Shown: positions 28,244-34,607 of the stretch, piece by piece | Layout of the letters: the number at the start of each line of letters is the position of its first letter | Numbering within the stretch: position 1 is the first letter of the stretch | Source of the DNA: Planctomycetaceae bacterium | GTDB lineage: Bacteria; Planctomycetota; Planctomycetia; Pirellulales; Pirellulaceae | NCBI GenBank assembly: GCA_002862205.1 | Contig: PKCN01000286.1 | Location: forward strand, 1 to 34,607 | Reading direction: 5' to 3' | Length of the DNA: 34,607 nucleotides | The notes under the pieces: generated by a model | What the model saw: the letters and a program-made list of their open reading frames with translations, nothing else | Databases searched by the model: none | What the model was told of the DNA's origin: nothing | Position numbers and translations under genes: made by a program

Positions 28244-30754
28244 ATGAAATCGACCTCATTCCTCATCGCTGTGGTTGTCGCAGTCTGGCTTTTCTCGGAT
28301 GCCGCACAGTGCATTGCGCAAACACTGAATCCCCAGCGTGTTTATCCCGTCTTTGCAATGGGAGCCACAGGAGTTCATGTGTCCATTGAGAAGGAGATGA
28401 AAGTGACAGTGAATGGGCTGGAGAAGGAATCTGCCGCGGCAAGTTCGGGCTTGGAAGTTGGCGATGTGGTGACGTCGATTGGTGGACGCAGTTTGGCGGT
28501 AAAAGACCCACGTTTACCTTTGGGCGAAGCGATCAGCGCAGCGGAAGCAGGCGATGGGAAACTGGATGTGACTGTGAAGCGTGAAACGCAGATTTTGGAA
28601 TTCCAATTTCGCGTGCCAGTGTTGGGTCCGTATTCTGATCAATGGCCGGCCCGCTGTTCCAAATCTGCGGCGATCATTGACTCGACGGTGAGATACATCA
28701 TCAAGAGCCAGAAGCCCGACGGTAGTTACCAATTCCAGAATGGCCGTGGAATCCGGGACAACCTGCAGGGCTGCCTTTCAAGCTTATTTCTACTGTCCAC
28801 CGGCAATGATGCTTACCTACCAAATGTGCAGCGACATGCGCAACAACTTGCAAAGCTCGCTGAGTCCAGAAGAAATGCGGGAGGCCACGTGAACTGGCAA
28901 CTGGGCTATCAGGGAATCTTGCTCAGTGAATATTTCCTGCGTACAGGTGACCGCAAGGTGCTGGCTGGTTTACAGGAGCTATGCGACTGGTGCATTGATA
29001 ATCAGGCAGCCGGTGGTTGGGGACACGGCGAAGGGGTCGGGCCTGGTTATGTGCAAAGCGGACTCATGAACCACGCCGGACTACCGATCGTGATCACACT
29101 CATTCTGGCACAGGAGTGCGGGATTGATGTTGATTCAGTAGCCTACGCAGAGGCAGTGAAGTTGATGTATCGCATGGCGGGGCATGGTTGCATTGCCTAC
29201 GGAGATCATCGTAGTGAATTGTGGTGGTCCAATACCAACGGACGTAACGCGATGCTTGCATGCGCTTTTTCGTTACTGAGCCAATACCCACAATATAGCT
29301 CTGCATCCGAACACCTTGCTGTGCTTGTCACGGATTCTTACTTTCAACATGAGTTCGGTCACACCGGGGGCGGGTTTAACGTCATTTGGCGTGGTATCGC
29401 ATCGGTCCACGTTCCCGAAAGCCGACAGATCCACTACCAACGCCAGATGAATACATTGGCGTGGTACTACGACTTGTGCCGTCAACCTGCGGGCGGTTTT
29501 TCCATTCTGCCAACTCCACCCGACAATAGTCGGTATTCAGGTTTGGAATGGGGTACCGGGGCGATTGGATTGACGTACACGGCGCCGCGACGAGCACTGC
29601 GAATCACGGGTGCGCCACGATCGCCGCACAGTGTTTCCGCCGACCCACCGCGGTTTCAATGGGGAAATTCAAATGATTTGACGTTTTTGTCAACGCACGA
29701 CGCCGACGATTTCGGAACCGAATCTGACACGCCTCACCAACTCTATGAGGCTCTTCTTTTGAAGGGCGACGCTCCTCCCTCGATCGAATTATGCAGCAAA
29801 CACCTTCGGCATTACAGCCCATTGGTGCGGACATGGGCCGGCAGGCGACTGGGTGAAATGAATGATCCACAAGCCATCAACGCCTTGCACACAGCCAGCC
29901 TGCATTCTGATGCACGTGTGCGGAGGGCGGCATTTGATGCGATCTCGGGCTATGACAACTGGCGACGTCCAATTCGAGGTCGGCTACCTGCCAAGGTCGT
30001 TTCAGAGCGGTTCCTAAAACAGATTTTAAGCACAATTCAAGATGAGGAATCCGCATGGTGGGAACTGGATGGCGCGTTGTTCGCACTCGGGCAGGCCGAG
30101 CCCAACGATATTCGTCAGGCACTACCCCTCGTTCGCAGATTCATGACGCATGAAGACTGGTATCTGCGTGAAGCAGCATTCTGGGCAATCGTCGGTCTGC
30201 ATGCTGATATCAGTGGTGAAGAATTCGACCTTCTGACCAAGATGTATGAACAATCAAGAAACGTTTTCGAGCGGGCATCCTTTGACTCAGGATTCCAGAT
30301 GATCCTCAAAAGCGATAAGGCGGCGTTGGATCGTGCAACACTGGCCAACTCCGCAAAACGATTCGGTAAAACAACCCATCACCCCAAAGTAATGCTCGGT
30401 TATGGTGTGGGAGGAATACACGAAGCTACCCATCGCACCATGATGGTCCTGAAGCATTTTGATTCTGAAATCTATCCACTCATGATCGATGACTTTGCGT
30501 TGTATCTCAAAAACTGGGAGCCGTATTACCAACACAGCATTTGGCTGATCAAGGGAAGCAAATGGCAACCTGGAATTCTGGAAATTCTCAAGGATCTGGG
30601 CCCCGAGGGTCAGCCCATTGCCAACCAGCTTGACAGAATCACGCGCGGGTACGAGCAGTTTCAAACCAGCCGGATTCCCAATGATGCAAAAACATTGCGG
30701 AGCCAAATGATCACTGCAGTGCAGCAGTGGAAGGCGAAACAATCGGCGAAGTGA
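28244..30754 (+). CDS. Exported PDZ / helical toroid / HEAT protein (DUF6288-like)
   Basis: This encodes 836 residues with a signal peptide (MKSTSFLIAVVVAVWLFSDA, cleavage near CIAQ). Residues about 30-125 form a PDZ-like domain (VNGLEKESAAASSGLEVGDV, SIGGRSL, DVTVKRETQILEFQFRVPVL). Residues about 145-480 look like an alpha/alpha toroid (TVRYIIKSQKPDGSYQFQNG, GGHVNWQLGYQGILLSEYFL, AAGGWGHGEGVGPGYVQSGL, WWSNTNGRNAMLACAFSLLS), the arrangement seen in DUF6288 proteins. Residues about 530-800 hold HEAT-like helices (SLHSDARVRRAAFDAISGY). Toroid folds with G-W-G-H motifs are used by polysaccharide lyases and prenyl or terpene enzymes, but no catalytic set can be named. It is preceded and followed by long intergenic regions and seems monocistronic. 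Confidence 0.8.
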   Translation: MKSTSFLIAVVVAVWLFSDAAQCIAQTLNPQRVYPVFAMGATGVHVSIEKEMKVTVNGLEKESAAASSGLEVGDVVTSIGGRSLAVKDPRLPLGEAISAAEAGDGKLDVTVKRETQILEFQFRVPVLGPYSDQWPARCSKSAAIIDSTVRYIIKSQKPDGSYQFQNGRGIRDNLQGCLSSLFLLSTGNDAYLPNVQRHAQQLAKLAESRRNAGGHVNWQLGYQGILLSEYFLRTGDRKVLAGLQELCDWCIDNQAAGGWGHGEGVGPGYVQSGLMNHAGLPIVITLILAQECGIDVDSVAYAEAVKLMYRMAGHGCIAYGDHRSELWWSNTNGRNAMLACAFSLLSQYPQYSSASEHLAVLVTDSYFQHEFGHTGGGFNVIWRGIASVHVPESRQIHYQRQMNTLAWYYDLCRQPAGGFSILPTPPDNSRYSGLEWGTGAIGLTYTAPRRALRITGAPRSPHSVSADPPRFQWGNSNDLTFLSTHDADDFGTESDTPHQLYEALLLKGDAPPSIELCSKHLRHYSPLVRTWAGRRLGEMNDPQAINALHTASLHSDARVRRAAFDAISGYDNWRRPIRGRLPAKVVSERFLKQILSTIQDEESAWWELDGALFALGQAEPNDIRQALPLVRRFMTHEDWYLREAAFWAIVGLHADISGEEFDLLTKMYEQSRNVFERASFDSGFQMILKSDKAALDRATLANSAKRFGKTTHHPKVMLGYGVGGIHEATHRTMMVLKHFDSEIYPLMIDDFALYLKNWEPYYQHSIWLIKGSKWQPGILEILKDLGPEGQPIANQLDRITRGYEQFQTSRIPNDAKTLRSQMITAVQQWKAKQSAK

Positions 30755-31318: not shown

Positions 31319-31323
31319 AGGAG
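31319..31323 (+). promoter_or_regulatory. Ribosome binding site AGGAG for the di-iron protein
   Basis: AGGAG lies ten bases before the ATG at 31334. It supports that start over an in-frame TTG at 31271. Confidence 0.55.
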
Positions 31324-31333
31324 TCCGCCGCGC

Positions 31334-32080
31334 ATGTTGATCCACCAACCCAAGAATATTGATAGCTTACAGAACCGCGCCCGCCAGCACAGGGCTATTA
31401 ACCACCCCTATCTGAAAGCTTTGGCCGCCGGTGACTTGCCGGATCCGCGACAGGCGATTGTTGACTTCGCCGTTCAATATCAGGGGTACACAAGTTGGTT
31501 CCCCAAGTATCTCAATTGCGTGATGAGTAAATTGGACAGTGAACAGCACCGCGCCTATTTTCAAGAAAATCTGGATGAGGAAAGTGGACATCTCGATGCA
31601 GAAACGATCCGGGATCTCAAAGCCATGGGGATTGAAGAGGAGTGGGTACAAGGAGTACCGCACCCGATTCTATTTCGTCGGTTTCAATTAGCTGTTGGTA
31701 TTGATGCCCGATTGCAACCATTGTTCCCCGGGGCGATTCGATGGCGGAAGAATTTTCTTGCAATGCTTCAGCAGGCAACGCCAGCCGAGGCGATTGGTGC
31801 GATGGGACTGGGCACTGAATCAATGGTCAAATATATCTATCGGCCGATTACAGAAGCAATCAGAAAGTTCACCAAAGTGAGCCAACGCGATTATGTCTTC
31901 TTTGAGCTTCATTCTGAGGTTGATGACGAGCACGCCGAACTGATGATGCGCGTCGCTGATGAATTGGCACACGGCGATGCGGAGAAAATTGAAGAGATAC
32001 AGCGGGGAATGGAGTCGGCCCTTGATCTACGAGCATTGTTTTGGGATCAGCTTTACGCTCGTGCAAAGGAAGTGAAATGA
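31334..32080 (+). CDS. Haem-oxygenase-like di-iron protein (HDO/PqqC-TENA superfamily)
   Basis: This encodes 248 residues with no signal peptide, so it is cytosolic. The all-helical sequence matches the iron-containing PqqC/TENA/haem-oxygenase-like fold: FAVQYQGYTSWFPKYLNCVM, ENLDEESGHLDAE, GLGTESMVKYIYRPI and ELHSEVDDEHAELM. Likely ligands are E82 or E83 and H86, E162, and the HxxxDxxH set H193-D197-H200, the spacing seen in haem-oxygenase-like di-iron oxidases such as CADD and SznF. Members of this family oxidise amines, fatty acids or amino acids with oxygen, often cutting C-C or C-N bonds. Which of these this protein does cannot be read from the sequence. Its stop overlaps the methyltransferase start (ATGA), so it is co-translated with it. 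It is the first gene of a three-gene operon. Confidence 0.85.
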   Translation: MLIHQPKNIDSLQNRARQHRAINHPYLKALAAGDLPDPRQAIVDFAVQYQGYTSWFPKYLNCVMSKLDSEQHRAYFQENLDEESGHLDAETIRDLKAMGIEEEWVQGVPHPILFRRFQLAVGIDARLQPLFPGAIRWRKNFLAMLQQATPAEAIGAMGLGTESMVKYIYRPITEAIRKFTKVSQRDYVFFELHSEVDDEHAELMMRVADELAHGDAEKIEEIQRGMESALDLRALFWDQLYARAKEVK

Positions 32081-32838
32081 CCACTGCCGAATCAACCCGT
32101 GAAATTTATAATGATCAGGCCGAAAAATGGCAGCGCGATCGACCCACTCTTTTGTCTGATTTCTCGGCAAGACCTTTCCTGCTGGAATTGTGTGATCCAA
32201 TTCAAGGCAAGAGATGCTTGGACCTGGGTTGTGGTGAAGGATATGTGGCAAGAGAACTCATGAAGCGAGGTGCAGCAAGCACGCTTGGCGTCGATATCTC
32301 TGAAAAGATGATTGAGTGCGCAAACCGCCAGCAGCAATCGGCACTCCAGGAAGGCCTTGAATATCGTGAATGCGACTTACGGAACGGTGCGGAAGACATC
32401 GGCAATTCTTATGATCTCGTTGTAGCGGTGTTTCTTTTCAATTACATGAGCATCGAGGAGATGCACCGCACCATGCGTCTGGCGCATGAAAAACTCACTT
32501 CGACGGGGCGTCTCATCTTCTCCGTTCCCCATCCGTCGCTTCCTTTCCTCAAACGCGACAAGTTTCCGTTCTACTTCGCTCCATCCGGGGGTTATTTCAG
32601 TGGACGCGACCAATGTTTCCCGGGCGAGATCTGGAGATTGGATCGAACCCCAGTAAAAGTACAGTGCGTTCATAAGACATTCGAAGATTACTTTCAGGGA
32701 CTCAAAGCGGCGGGTTTCGAGACGATGCCGAATGTTCACGAGCTCAAAATAAATCAGGCCCACGTCGATCTCGACGCCGAGTTTTTTGAGCCACTACGTG
32801 ATTTACCACTGCATCTTGCCATCGAGGTAACAAAATAA
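32077..32838 (+). CDS. Class I SAM-dependent methyltransferase
   Basis: This encodes 253 residues from the ATG at 32077, which overlaps the preceding stop by four bases. The Rossmann methyltransferase motifs are clear: motif I CLDLGCGEGYVARELM (about residues 47-62), GVDISEKMIECA (71-82) for the SAM ribose contact, YRECDL for the adenine pocket, YDLVVAVFLFNYMS for motif IV, and a post-methyl-transfer block GRLIFSVPHPSLPFLKRDKF. The C-terminal region (GGYFSGRDQCF, TFEDYFQGLKAAGF) is the family's usual lid and helix. It is a small-molecule type; the acceptor is unknown. The gene lies between two oxygen-dependent iron enzymes, so it may methylate their substrate or product. The stop TAA shares one base with the next ATG. 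Confidence 0.9.
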   Translation: MTTAESTREIYNDQAEKWQRDRPTLLSDFSARPFLLELCDPIQGKRCLDLGCGEGYVARELMKRGAASTLGVDISEKMIECANRQQQSALQEGLEYRECDLRNGAEDIGNSYDLVVAVFLFNYMSIEEMHRTMRLAHEKLTSTGRLIFSVPHPSLPFLKRDKFPFYFAPSGGYFSGRDQCFPGEIWRLDRTPVKVQCVHKTFEDYFQGLKAAGFETMPNVHELKINQAHVDLDAEFFEPLRDLPLHLAIEVTK

Positions 32839-33854
32839 TGTCCACATCACAACTTGAACCACGTCTGTCAGGAGCATGGCGTTCGCATGTTCCAACCGCC
32901 AGTGAATCCAGCTTGCGAATCCCTGACGAAATTGTTCACGCCTGCCTTGACTTCGTCTCGTGTGAGCCTGAAACGTTTGGAAGTGGCGAGAAGGTATTAC
33001 GATGGACATTGGCATTGAAACAAAGAATGCTCGCCACTCCGGGATTTGTTTGTCTTAAAGTTGGTGATGCCGGATATACAAACAATGATTTAAGGAAAGT
33101 GTATTCTGCAGTGTCGCGATCGTTCGGGGATTTGAACACACGATACGGGGAATTCTTTGACGTCAAGGATCGAGGACTTGATCATACAAAGGAAGCGATT
33201 CCGGTGTCGAAGACTCGTGCGTCGACGGGTTTTCACACGGACAGTTCTGCGGCGAACTACTGCCCCGAGATCGTTGGATTGCTGTGCCTGCAACCAGCGC
33301 AATCCGGCGGCGAGTCACTGCTTGCCAATGCCGTGAATCTGTATTCCTGGCTCGCTGAAAACCATCCGATGAGCCTGAAGGTGCTGTCGCGACCAATCAA
33401 GCGAGACGTGATCACGCCGGGAACAAAGCAAGACGTGGAAGCAATTCAAAGCAATTCCTTTCCGATTTTTACTCGAACACAGTCCACCGTTCAATTCCGC
33501 TACATGCGGTACTGGATTGAGACGGCCTACAAGAAACTCGCACAACCCCTACCAGGTGGACTTCGTAAGGCGATGAATCTCATCGACAGTTACTTGATGG
33601 ACCCGGCAAACACGTATTCACGCATGCTGCTGCGAGGTGAAATGCTATTTGTGAACAATTGCCATCTGTGTCACTCACGGACTGCGTTCACGGATTCTTT
33701 GGTTCCGGGACAAAAACGGGTGCTGGTTCGAACGTGGATTGATCGCATGCACGCCACCCCTGCACGTACGGATCTGAGTTGCAGTTCTACCCATGATTCC
33801 ATCAGCCGAGATGGTGTGTTGGATAGTGCGTTTGATCCAGCACTTGCCTCCTGA
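32838..33854 (+). CDS. TauD/TfdA-type Fe(II)/2-oxoglutarate dioxygenase
   Basis: This encodes 338 residues with no signal peptide. The facial triad is visible: GFHTDSSA supplies H133 and D135, and NNCHLCHSRTAF supplies the distal histidine (H279). R298 in VLVRTW is the likely 2-oxoglutarate carboxylate contact. LLCLQPAQSGGESLLANAVN is typical of the TauD/TfdA core. Family members hydroxylate, desaturate, halogenate or cleave small molecules. The aspartate in the HxD motif indicates hydroxylation-type rather than halogenase chemistry. The substrate is unknown. The start shares one base with the methyltransferase stop (TAATG), and a hairpin begins five bases after its own stop. The C-terminal tail (about 310-338) is Ser/Thr/Asp-rich and looks disordered. 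Confidence 0.9.
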   Translation: MSTSQLEPRLSGAWRSHVPTASESSLRIPDEIVHACLDFVSCEPETFGSGEKVLRWTLALKQRMLATPGFVCLKVGDAGYTNNDLRKVYSAVSRSFGDLNTRYGEFFDVKDRGLDHTKEAIPVSKTRASTGFHTDSSAANYCPEIVGLLCLQPAQSGGESLLANAVNLYSWLAENHPMSLKVLSRPIKRDVITPGTKQDVEAIQSNSFPIFTRTQSTVQFRYMRYWIETAYKKLAQPLPGGLRKAMNLIDSYLMDPANTYSRMLLRGEMLFVNNCHLCHSRTAFTDSLVPGQKRVLVRTWIDRMHATPARTDLSCSSTHDSISRDGVLDSAFDPALAS

Positions 33855-34235: not shown

Positions 34236-34607
34236 ATGTCCAAGCTGTCGGTTACTTTACAAATTTTCGCATTAATGAGCGTGTTCGGCATCATCAGCAA
34301 CTCCGAGTGCGCACCTCCCACACGAGCATTTGACGCTGCGGGTGCCCCGGAGTTCGAACGTCTTGACGGCAAAACTGGTGTAAATCCGCCGCTCAATTCG
34401 GATGGCAACTTTCTGATTGGACCGGTTTATGAATCAGCACCGGAGCGAGATTTGGTAGCGGGCGTTCCGCAGGGACGGGTTGAACAATTCACCATGGATT
34501 CCCGCAACGGAAAACTATTCAATCCAGGAATCGCAAGGAAAGTATTCGGGAGGGTCGACCCCGGAAACCCGAAAACATTGCTCGTTGACACTCACGAGAT
34601 TGACTAC
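34236..34607 (+). CDS. Secreted esterase-like protein, N-terminal part (3' end off window)
   Basis: The frame is open from the ATG at 34236 to the window edge, 124 codons. A signal peptide (MSKLSVTLQIFALMSVFGII) is followed by a spacer and then DGNFLIGPVYESAPE, VPQGRVEQFTMDS, FNPGIARKVFGRVDPGNPK and LVDTHEIDY. From memory of the family, this is the lead-in to secreted putative esterases of the alpha/beta-hydrolase class (enterochelin-esterase-like, PF00756), where a catalytic domain follows. The catalytic serine lies beyond the window, so the activity is inferred only. Confidence 0.65.
   Translation, partial: MSKLSVTLQIFALMSVFGIISNSECAPPTRAFDAAGAPEFERLDGKTGVNPPLNSDGNFLIGPVYESAPERDLVAGVPQGRVEQFTMDSRNGKLFNPGIARKVFGRVDPGNPKTLLVDTHEIDY

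Follow-up and report, generated by a model that had tools for sequence, protein, structure and literature searches.

A compact cluster of three genes in a 34,607-nucleotide stretch of a Planctomycetaceae bacterium genome (assembly GCA_002862205.1, contig PKCN01000286.1, positions 1 to 34,607; hereafter the window) encodes a haem-oxygenase-like dimetal oxidase/oxygenase (HDO), a class I S-adenosylmethionine (SAM)-dependent methyltransferase (MT) and a TauD-superfamily Fe(II)/2-oxoglutarate (Fe/2OG) dioxygenase (hereafter TauD); the three genes almost certainly constitute one functional unit, and the explanation that we favour by a modest measure is a cytosolic pathway of three enzymes, complete in itself, by which a small molecule is oxidised and methylated. 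All three lie on the forward strand: the HDO of 248 amino acids (aa) at 31334..32080 (ATG at 31334, TGA at 32078-32080), the MT of 253 aa at 32077..32838 (ATG at 32077, TAA at 32836-32838) and the TauD of 338 aa at 32838..33854 (ATG at 32838, TGA at 33852-33854). As read from the sequence, the MT start overlaps the HDO stop by four bases (ATGA, 32077..32080), and the TauD start overlaps the MT stop by a single base (32838), the final one of that stop codon. An earlier sequence-only reading of this DNA had proposed the same coordinates, strand and overlaps, which are exact to the base on re-reading, and had named the same three gene families, all of which pass curated Pfam cut-offs (PF14518, Methyltransf_25 and PF02668). 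Overlaps recur in related loci: those of four bases occur in L010 and L012 at each of the two junctions, in L016 between HDO and MT, and in L018 between MT and TauD; to judge from the overlaps, the three proteins may be produced in a fixed ratio.

The sequence-only reading had suggested looking for the trio in related genomes, and this search finds all three genes in 6/60 relatives and the HDO together with the MT in 11/392 planctomycetes and in 18/249 genomes from the order of a Flavobacteriales metagenome-assembled genome (MAG; hereafter the Flavobacteriales order). The distribution of the trio is patchy. Among the 60 relatives, an HDO match better than 1e-100 is present in six genomes (the window genome included) spread over three genera of one family, and in all six the MT and TauD genes stand directly behind it; a seventh relative (G038) has only a weak partial HDO match (E 8e-4). 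The closest named carriers of the trio are the MAGs Rhodopirellula sp. and Rubripirellula sp., whose HDOs are 73 and 72% identical to that of the window. A scan of genome contigs returns 11 loci, namely six planctomycete loci, four from Bacteroidota (best HDO segments 48-54% identical) and one on a contig binned as Verrucomicrobiales; the MT is present in 10/11 and TauD in 9/11, in the same gene order. L019 ends with its contig inside the HDO, L013 ends after the MT, and L020 has broken frames for HDO and TauD. Genome G002, a MAG with a full trio, has an additional, incomplete HDO gene at the end of a contig (L019/L026).

At the scale of the planctomycete phylum (392 genomes, with the best six candidates per genome scored), an HDO is found at E<=1e-10 in 31 genomes and a member of the window's HDO clade (E<=1e-70) in 13. 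The MT (E<=1e-40) occurs in 11 genomes, all among these 13, and TauD (E<=1e-30) in 14, of which 12 fall within the 13 and two, with weaker matches, outside; the latter two (G166, E 1.3e-33; G440, E 2.9e-31) were set aside as other dioxygenases, with no HDO or MT within the 12-14 kilobases (kb) around them. Across the 249 genomes of the Flavobacteriales order, where the MT search scored the best 10 candidates, the HDO (E<=1e-15) occurs in 27 and the MT (E<=1e-40) in 18, all inside the 27. These 18 comprise 12 genomes with the order HDO-MT-TauD, one with HDO-MT followed by the contig end (G697), four in which the MT-TauD pair faces the HDO (G634, G630, G685 and G687, with contig breaks inside the G630 MT and the G687 HDO) and one with the genes in pieces on two contigs (G616). 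At the thresholds used, the MT is found in none of the 379 HDO-less planctomycete genomes and in none of the 222 HDO-less Flavobacteriales-order genomes. Gains and losses of MT and TauD coincide, and the two are seen only with the HDO, on which they depend; they form a tight pair, and the HDO can stand apart from them, occur alone or carry a fused cyclic-nucleotide-binding domain.

The fused form belongs to a second planctomycete family (f37), in which the HDO frame is longer; the one f37 HDO scanned for domains, at L057:7485-8666 on the reverse strand, carries an N-terminal cNMP_binding domain (62.4 bits). Three AIM24-like genes (Pfam on one) adjoin the HDO of L057 and of its relatives L028-L039. 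Genus g75 of this family has the MT-TauD pair facing the HDO in 6/6 genomes. The HDO of genus g146 stands beside genes that by eye resemble the g75 AIM24-family gene (Pfam on L057 only), with no MT or TauD near, and the MT is on a different contig from the HDO in 4/5 genomes; TauD lies beside the MT in G160, G304 and G396, and in G248 both are in pieces at contig ends. That the trio is retained though the HDO is separated provides stronger evidence of joint function than adjacency alone.

Neighbouring genes were surveyed as open reading frames (ORFs) of at least 90 aa within 8 kb of the HDO; the 27 loci surveyed comprise 19 from Bacteroidota, six planctomycete loci, one from f37 and the alphaproteobacterial L165, which lacks TauD. 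Only the HDO, MT and TauD recur across groups, together with one ORF family at two loci; these counts are lower bounds, because the ORF filter missed genes under longer shadow ORFs and several contigs are short. For the protein alignments, ORFs missed at shadow-ORF loci were recovered by frame for seven genomes. No ligase, carrier protein, nonribosomal peptide synthetase (NRPS), polyketide synthase (PKS), or uptake or export transporter recurs beside the trio at the 27 loci. The suggestion that the three are chance neighbours in one genome is refuted by the same trio occurring across families and phyla with unrelated flanks, and nothing was found in its favour. The Verrucomicrobiales-binned locus L013 was considered as an additional phylum and rejected: this 3,961-base contig, with a coverage of 0.08 and planctomycete-like HDO and MT, nests among planctomycetes in the HDO tree (in a seven-row group at 100/100, sister to a Pirellulaceae row at 98/84), is probably a mis-binned planctomycete contig and is not counted; it is the only match among 111 genomes of the order of that bin. 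The order of the Saprospiraceae locus has matches in 3/114 genomes, namely G449, G860 (also with the trio) and one remote match; G852 (25% HDO) was left out of use.

Seven of the nine Flavobacteriales-order genomes that have the HDO only form a single branch (100/100 support). As predicted, TauD is found in 0/9 of these HDO-only genomes at E<=1e-10, and both MT-bearing genomes included in the same search (2/2) are positive. At the five sufficiently long loci of the branch (L145:9775-12448 on the forward strand, L146, L147, L150 and L154), the HDO is followed by a gene with a C-terminal cupin domain, assigned with Pfam in L145 and L154 and by eye, from likeness to L145, in the remaining three; an MFS-like (major facilitator superfamily) gene comes next in 3/5 loci, and a gene for a class IV aminotransferase lies beyond, both assigned with Pfam in L145. 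All seven branch HDOs keep 39/43 of the residues that are invariant in the 37 other clade rows, the exceptions being P25, R73, G99 and G122, so the HDO reaction of this branch is probably the same. Genome G572 has flanking genes in common with G634, yet MT and TauD are absent from it.

The HDO matches PF14518 (Haem_oxygenas_2) with 69.5 bits against a cut-off of 28.9. While it also passes PF03070, the TenA thiaminase family, with 29.9 bits (cut-off 22), PF14518 scores far higher and all six metal ligands are present; no haem-oxygenase Pfam family is matched at E<=0.01. The AlphaFold2 model, built on an alignment of 10 relatives (predicted local distance difference test, pLDDT, 90.9; predicted template modelling score 0.88), adopts the haem-oxygenase-like helical fold: Foldseek places CADD and BesC on top (template modelling score for CADD 0.73/0.84), and VIA-align ranks HrmI first (Z 26.0, root-mean-square deviation 2.5, 224 residues), followed by CADD (24.5), BesC (23.1), CADD-like proteins, PqqC, FlcD, UndA and HamA, with TenA proteins lower and SznF at Z 17.4. 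Judged by the fold ranking, the protein probably does not cluster with haem-degrading or thiaminase proteins, an outcome that the sequence-only reading had named as refuting its assignment.

Alignment to CADD and BesC places the putative first carboxylate ligand at one of two residues, E82 or E83 (codons 31577..31582; E83 is kept in 54/54 and E82 in 53/54 aligned HDOs). The first His ligand would be H110 (31661..31663; 54/54), which aligns with a His of CADD and BesC that we take to be a metal ligand; a further carboxylate is E162 (31817..31819; 54/54), and the last core helix contributes three ligands in the motif H193-x3-D197-x2-H200 (31910..31933; 54/54). The 54 rows consist of 47 clade members and seven other HDOs; outside the alignment are L020 (broken frames), G687 (split contigs), G860, the partial G002 copy (L019/L026), the Burkholderia and second Pantoea plasmid matches, the remaining distant planctomycete HDOs and the tandem copies. 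E82/E83, H110, E162, H193, D197 and H200 are invariant in 47/47 clade rows, an outcome that upholds the six-ligand expectation of the sequence-only reading, and by its sequence the protein is very probably a dimetal HDO that keeps the 3His/3carboxylate set. The clade is marked by an extra segment between the first Glu and the first His ligand (residues 86-108, 31589..31657, partly helical in the model), with an E82-H110 spacing of 28 in 47/47 clade rows as against 11-18 in the seven other HDOs and 7 in CADD and BesC, the latter value being taken from printed alignments and from what we presume to be the ligand Glu. Excerpts of PMC13108848 describe the 3His/3carboxylate set for most HDOs and, for 3His/4carboxylate HDOs of the SznF type, an extra Glu ligand on an auxiliary helix. 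Two other candidate ligands were dropped: H86, as part of an E83-x-x-H86 motif that resembles the Glu86/His89 pair of MboA (PMC13185094, in part), varies among the relatives of the clade (K, T, I, N, M, Q, R or L) and was given up for H110, and D88 is E in L016 and P in L018.

The MT satisfies the family cut-offs of a class I SAM-dependent methyltransferase (Methyltransf_25, 60.4 bits, cut-off 27; Methyltransf_11, 56.9 bits, cut-off 21.2) and contains the glycine-rich motif DLGCGEG (residues 49-55, 32221..32241), which we take to be the SAM-binding motif and in which D49 and G51-C52-G53-E54-G55 are invariant in 11/11 sequences. Its best solved relative is the ToxA methyltransferase (8rdl, E 1.4e-25, profile positions 35-159), a likeness that reflects the common SAM domain; the SAM half also resembles phosphoethanolamine N-methyltransferases. 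The C-terminal half of the MT, which lies outside the ToxA match, holds many invariant residues (YFS, HK, DYF), and no specific match to it was found, so that the methyl group may go to N, O or another atom. The third protein passes the PF02668 cut-off of the TauD/TfdA family (94.1 bits, cut-off 27) and has the corresponding ligand set, with the first two predicted iron ligands at H133-T-D135 (HxD, 33234..33242), the third at H279 (33672..33674), and R294 and R298 (33717..33731), one of which should bind 2-oxoglutarate; all are invariant in 9/9 sequences. Its best solved relatives are the Fe/2OG hydroxylases FrbJ, TtnM (7n7v) and gamma-butyrobetaine dioxygenase, which at ~18-19% identity are alike at the family level, and it falls below the NCBIfam equivalog cut-offs for gamma-butyrobetaine (39.9/414.75 bits), trimethyllysine (37.2/268.3) and TmpA (40.1/400) dioxygenases. 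An HxD motif distinguishes such enzymes from halogenases, and since the motif is kept here the protein is by motif not a halogenase. The TauD model is weak near the active site (mean pLDDT 74.1, below 50 for residues 112-134), and its fold ranking is only indicative.

More distant HDO relatives occur on plasmids, where four records show 27-32% identity; none was found in viral contigs, and none in phage records at E<=1e-5. L166:9905-11905 (forward strand), from a Pantoea agglomerans plasmid, encodes a 666-aa fusion of an HDO (29.7% identity, E 9e-18) with a class III aminotransferase; it is annotated ectB, an annotation that overlooks the HDO half. L165:3007-9463 (forward strand), from an Indioceanicola profundi plasmid, has an HDO (32%) and an MT (46%) adjacent to each other, with no features annotated there in the collection table. 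The pair is preceded by genes for FlgK, a protein with a flagellin domain and a glycosyltransferase, and a dTDP-4-amino-4,6-dideoxygalactose transaminase that scores above its cut-off lies close by. The L165 HDO falls outside the 28-spacing clade (spacing 14), and no TauD match is present at the locus; ~1.3 kb downstream, a protein that by eye resembles Fe/2OG oxygenases (HxD...H...R) has no Pfam, NCBIfam or PDB match. Within the planctomycete phylum, L061, L062, L043 and L044, from another family, carry two or three tandem HDO genes, and deep HDOs at L064, L065 and L067 lie near a glutamate-synthase-domain protein (Pfam on L065 only).

In the proposed pathway, the HDO, with Fe(II) (or Mn/Fe) and O2, would oxidise a primary metabolite to an intermediate that the MT-TauD pair would then methylate and hydroxylate. 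That the HDO acts first is probable from the pattern of gain and loss, because the MT is not found without the HDO, while the HDO occurs without MT and TauD. Its substrate would be an amine-bearing amino acid or a close derivative, because of the HrmI and BesC relatives and the Pantoea HDO-aminotransferase fusion; by analogy with the nearest characterised relatives, we put the chances of an amino acid or amine at about even. The HDO step may be an N-oxygenation (HrmI-like) or an oxidative cleavage (BesC-like), N-oxygenation in particular being a tentative assignment. The product would probably be a free small molecule, because no ligase, carrier protein or transporter recurs alongside. The conserved trio with no other recurring partner also supports the sequence-only reading in its view that the genes may make or modify a small metabolite or cofactor. 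HrmI, a lysine N-oxygenase with the same fold as the window HDO, acts within an NRPS pathway, and we know of no MT-TauD pair that accompanies it. SznE is the methyltransferase partner preceding the HDO-cupin SznF. Like the trio, the short route of SznE and SznF brings together a methyltransferase and an HDO with another non-haem iron centre; in SznF the second centre is a fused cupin (PMC13108848, in part), whereas here it is a separate TauD-type protein. According to excerpts of the same source, HrmI has a 3His/3carboxylate site, as does the window HDO; the two proteins share 15% identity, and the match begins at HrmI residue 108, HrmI having an extra N-terminal part.

Several observations weigh against this pathway or reduce its support. 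The HDO occurs without the MT in 9/27 Flavobacteriales-order genomes and in 2/13 planctomycete genomes, of the latter two, G390 (82% complete) lacks MT and TauD alike, and G271 lacks the MT and shows a truncated match to TauD within a contig. As MAGs make up most of the named records, absences may be gaps. In favour of the unit, the three proteins have correlated pairwise distances across 32 genomes (Pearson 0.93-0.96, Spearman 0.75-0.84), but the shared history of related genomes inflates this correlation and the Fisher p values (~1e-19 and 4e-21). The Z score of HrmI is only slightly above those of CADD and BesC, and fold likeness leaves the reaction unfixed. The alphaproteobacterial HDO-MT pair in its flagellar/amino-sugar locus could mean a sugar substrate.

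Such a substrate would make the trio a modifier of an amino sugar or glycan precursor, which is improbable: outside Indioceanicola profundi, whose HDO-MT genes lie by flagellar, glycosyltransferase and amino-sugar transaminase genes, no sugar gene recurs across groups at the other 26 loci, and that HDO is itself outside the 28-spacing clade at a locus with no TauD match. A BesC-like route, in which the HDO cleaves or desaturates a lysine-like amino acid and the MT and TauD decorate the unsaturated product, has a better claim but is still unlikely. BesC, the 4-chloro-allylglycine synthase, is among the nearest relatives in sequence (7twa, E 2.1e-05) and fold, H110 aligns with its corresponding His, and in the bes cluster this HDO acts alongside Fe/2OG enzymes; however, the BesC equivalog model NF042919 gives 18.9 bits against a cut-off of 500, the Glu-His spacing differs, HrmI and CADD fit the HDO model somewhat better, and the HxD of TauD speaks against a BesD-type halogenase.

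Less probable than the BesC-like route is a catabolic or detoxifying unit in which the three enzymes degrade or disarm an amine, betaine or phosphonate. The kinship of TauD with gamma-butyrobetaine, trimethyllysine and TmpA dioxygenases would suit it, as would the patchy distribution and the want of a recurring export gene, but a methyltransferase is unusual for a catabolic route, neither an uptake transporter nor any additional enzyme recurs, and the scores for those dioxygenases are far from their cut-offs (37-40 bits against 268-415). It is very improbable that the HDO is a self-sacrificing p-aminobenzoate synthase like CADD/NePabS with unrelated neighbours, although CADD is both its best PDB sequence relative and its best Foldseek match, with ligands aligned. 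The family model TIGR04305 scores 55.9 bits against a cut-off of 200, and the sacrificial Tyr27 and Lys152 of CADD (PMC11965152, in part) correspond to L27 and I172 in the alignment; CADD-type self-sacrifice was rejected on these grounds.

The three-enzyme oxidising and methylating pathway can be extended, speculatively, into a minimal natural-product or signal pathway that has spread laterally among planctomycetes and Bacteroidota, a joint reading of four parts which, taken all together, we regard as possible rather than probable. The 28-spacing HDO subfamily would turn an amino acid into a reactive (e.g. N-oxygenated) intermediate; the obligately paired MT and Fe/2OG dioxygenase would trap it as a stable free product; the fused cyclic-nucleotide-binding domain would switch the HDO on in one planctomycete family; and the Flavobacteriales branch would pass the intermediate to the cupin protein and, in some genomes, to an MFS exporter. 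The protein families are known, and the pathway and the HDO subfamily appear undescribed: literature searches of open-licence papers found no description of an HDO, methyltransferase and TauD trio, in line with the sequence-only reading, which knew of no pathway with this trio. Since all three enzymes are soluble and neither an NRPS, a PKS nor a carrier recurs with them, the complete pathway could be reconstituted in a single tube, which would assign a reaction to an HDO subfamily present in 27/249 sampled Flavobacteriales-order genomes; the fused f37 form suggests a link between HDOs and cyclic-nucleotide sensing. According to excerpts of PMC13108848, functions have been validated for only some dozen HDOs.

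The remaining features of the locus are minor. The assembly that contains the window comprises 7.8 Mb in 451 contigs. With a GC content of 0.50-0.52, the trio region does not depart from the range of the window, and its composition therefore gives no hint of recent transfer. A search for tRNA genes found none, and promoter-like sites (3 vs 2.3 expected) and terminator-like sites (6 vs 3.3 expected, standard deviation 1.8) are uninformative. By its sequence, a GGAG at 31320..31323 on the forward strand, with 10 bases separating it from the first ATG, may serve as a ribosome-binding site. Downstream of the trio, the next long ORF kept in relatives begins at 34236. Upstream, 579 bases separate the trio from a gene at 28244-30754 that matches DUF6288, HEAT and PDZ-like domains; the same DUF6288-HEAT gene occupies this place upstream of the trio in L010 and also precedes the partial HDO of L019.

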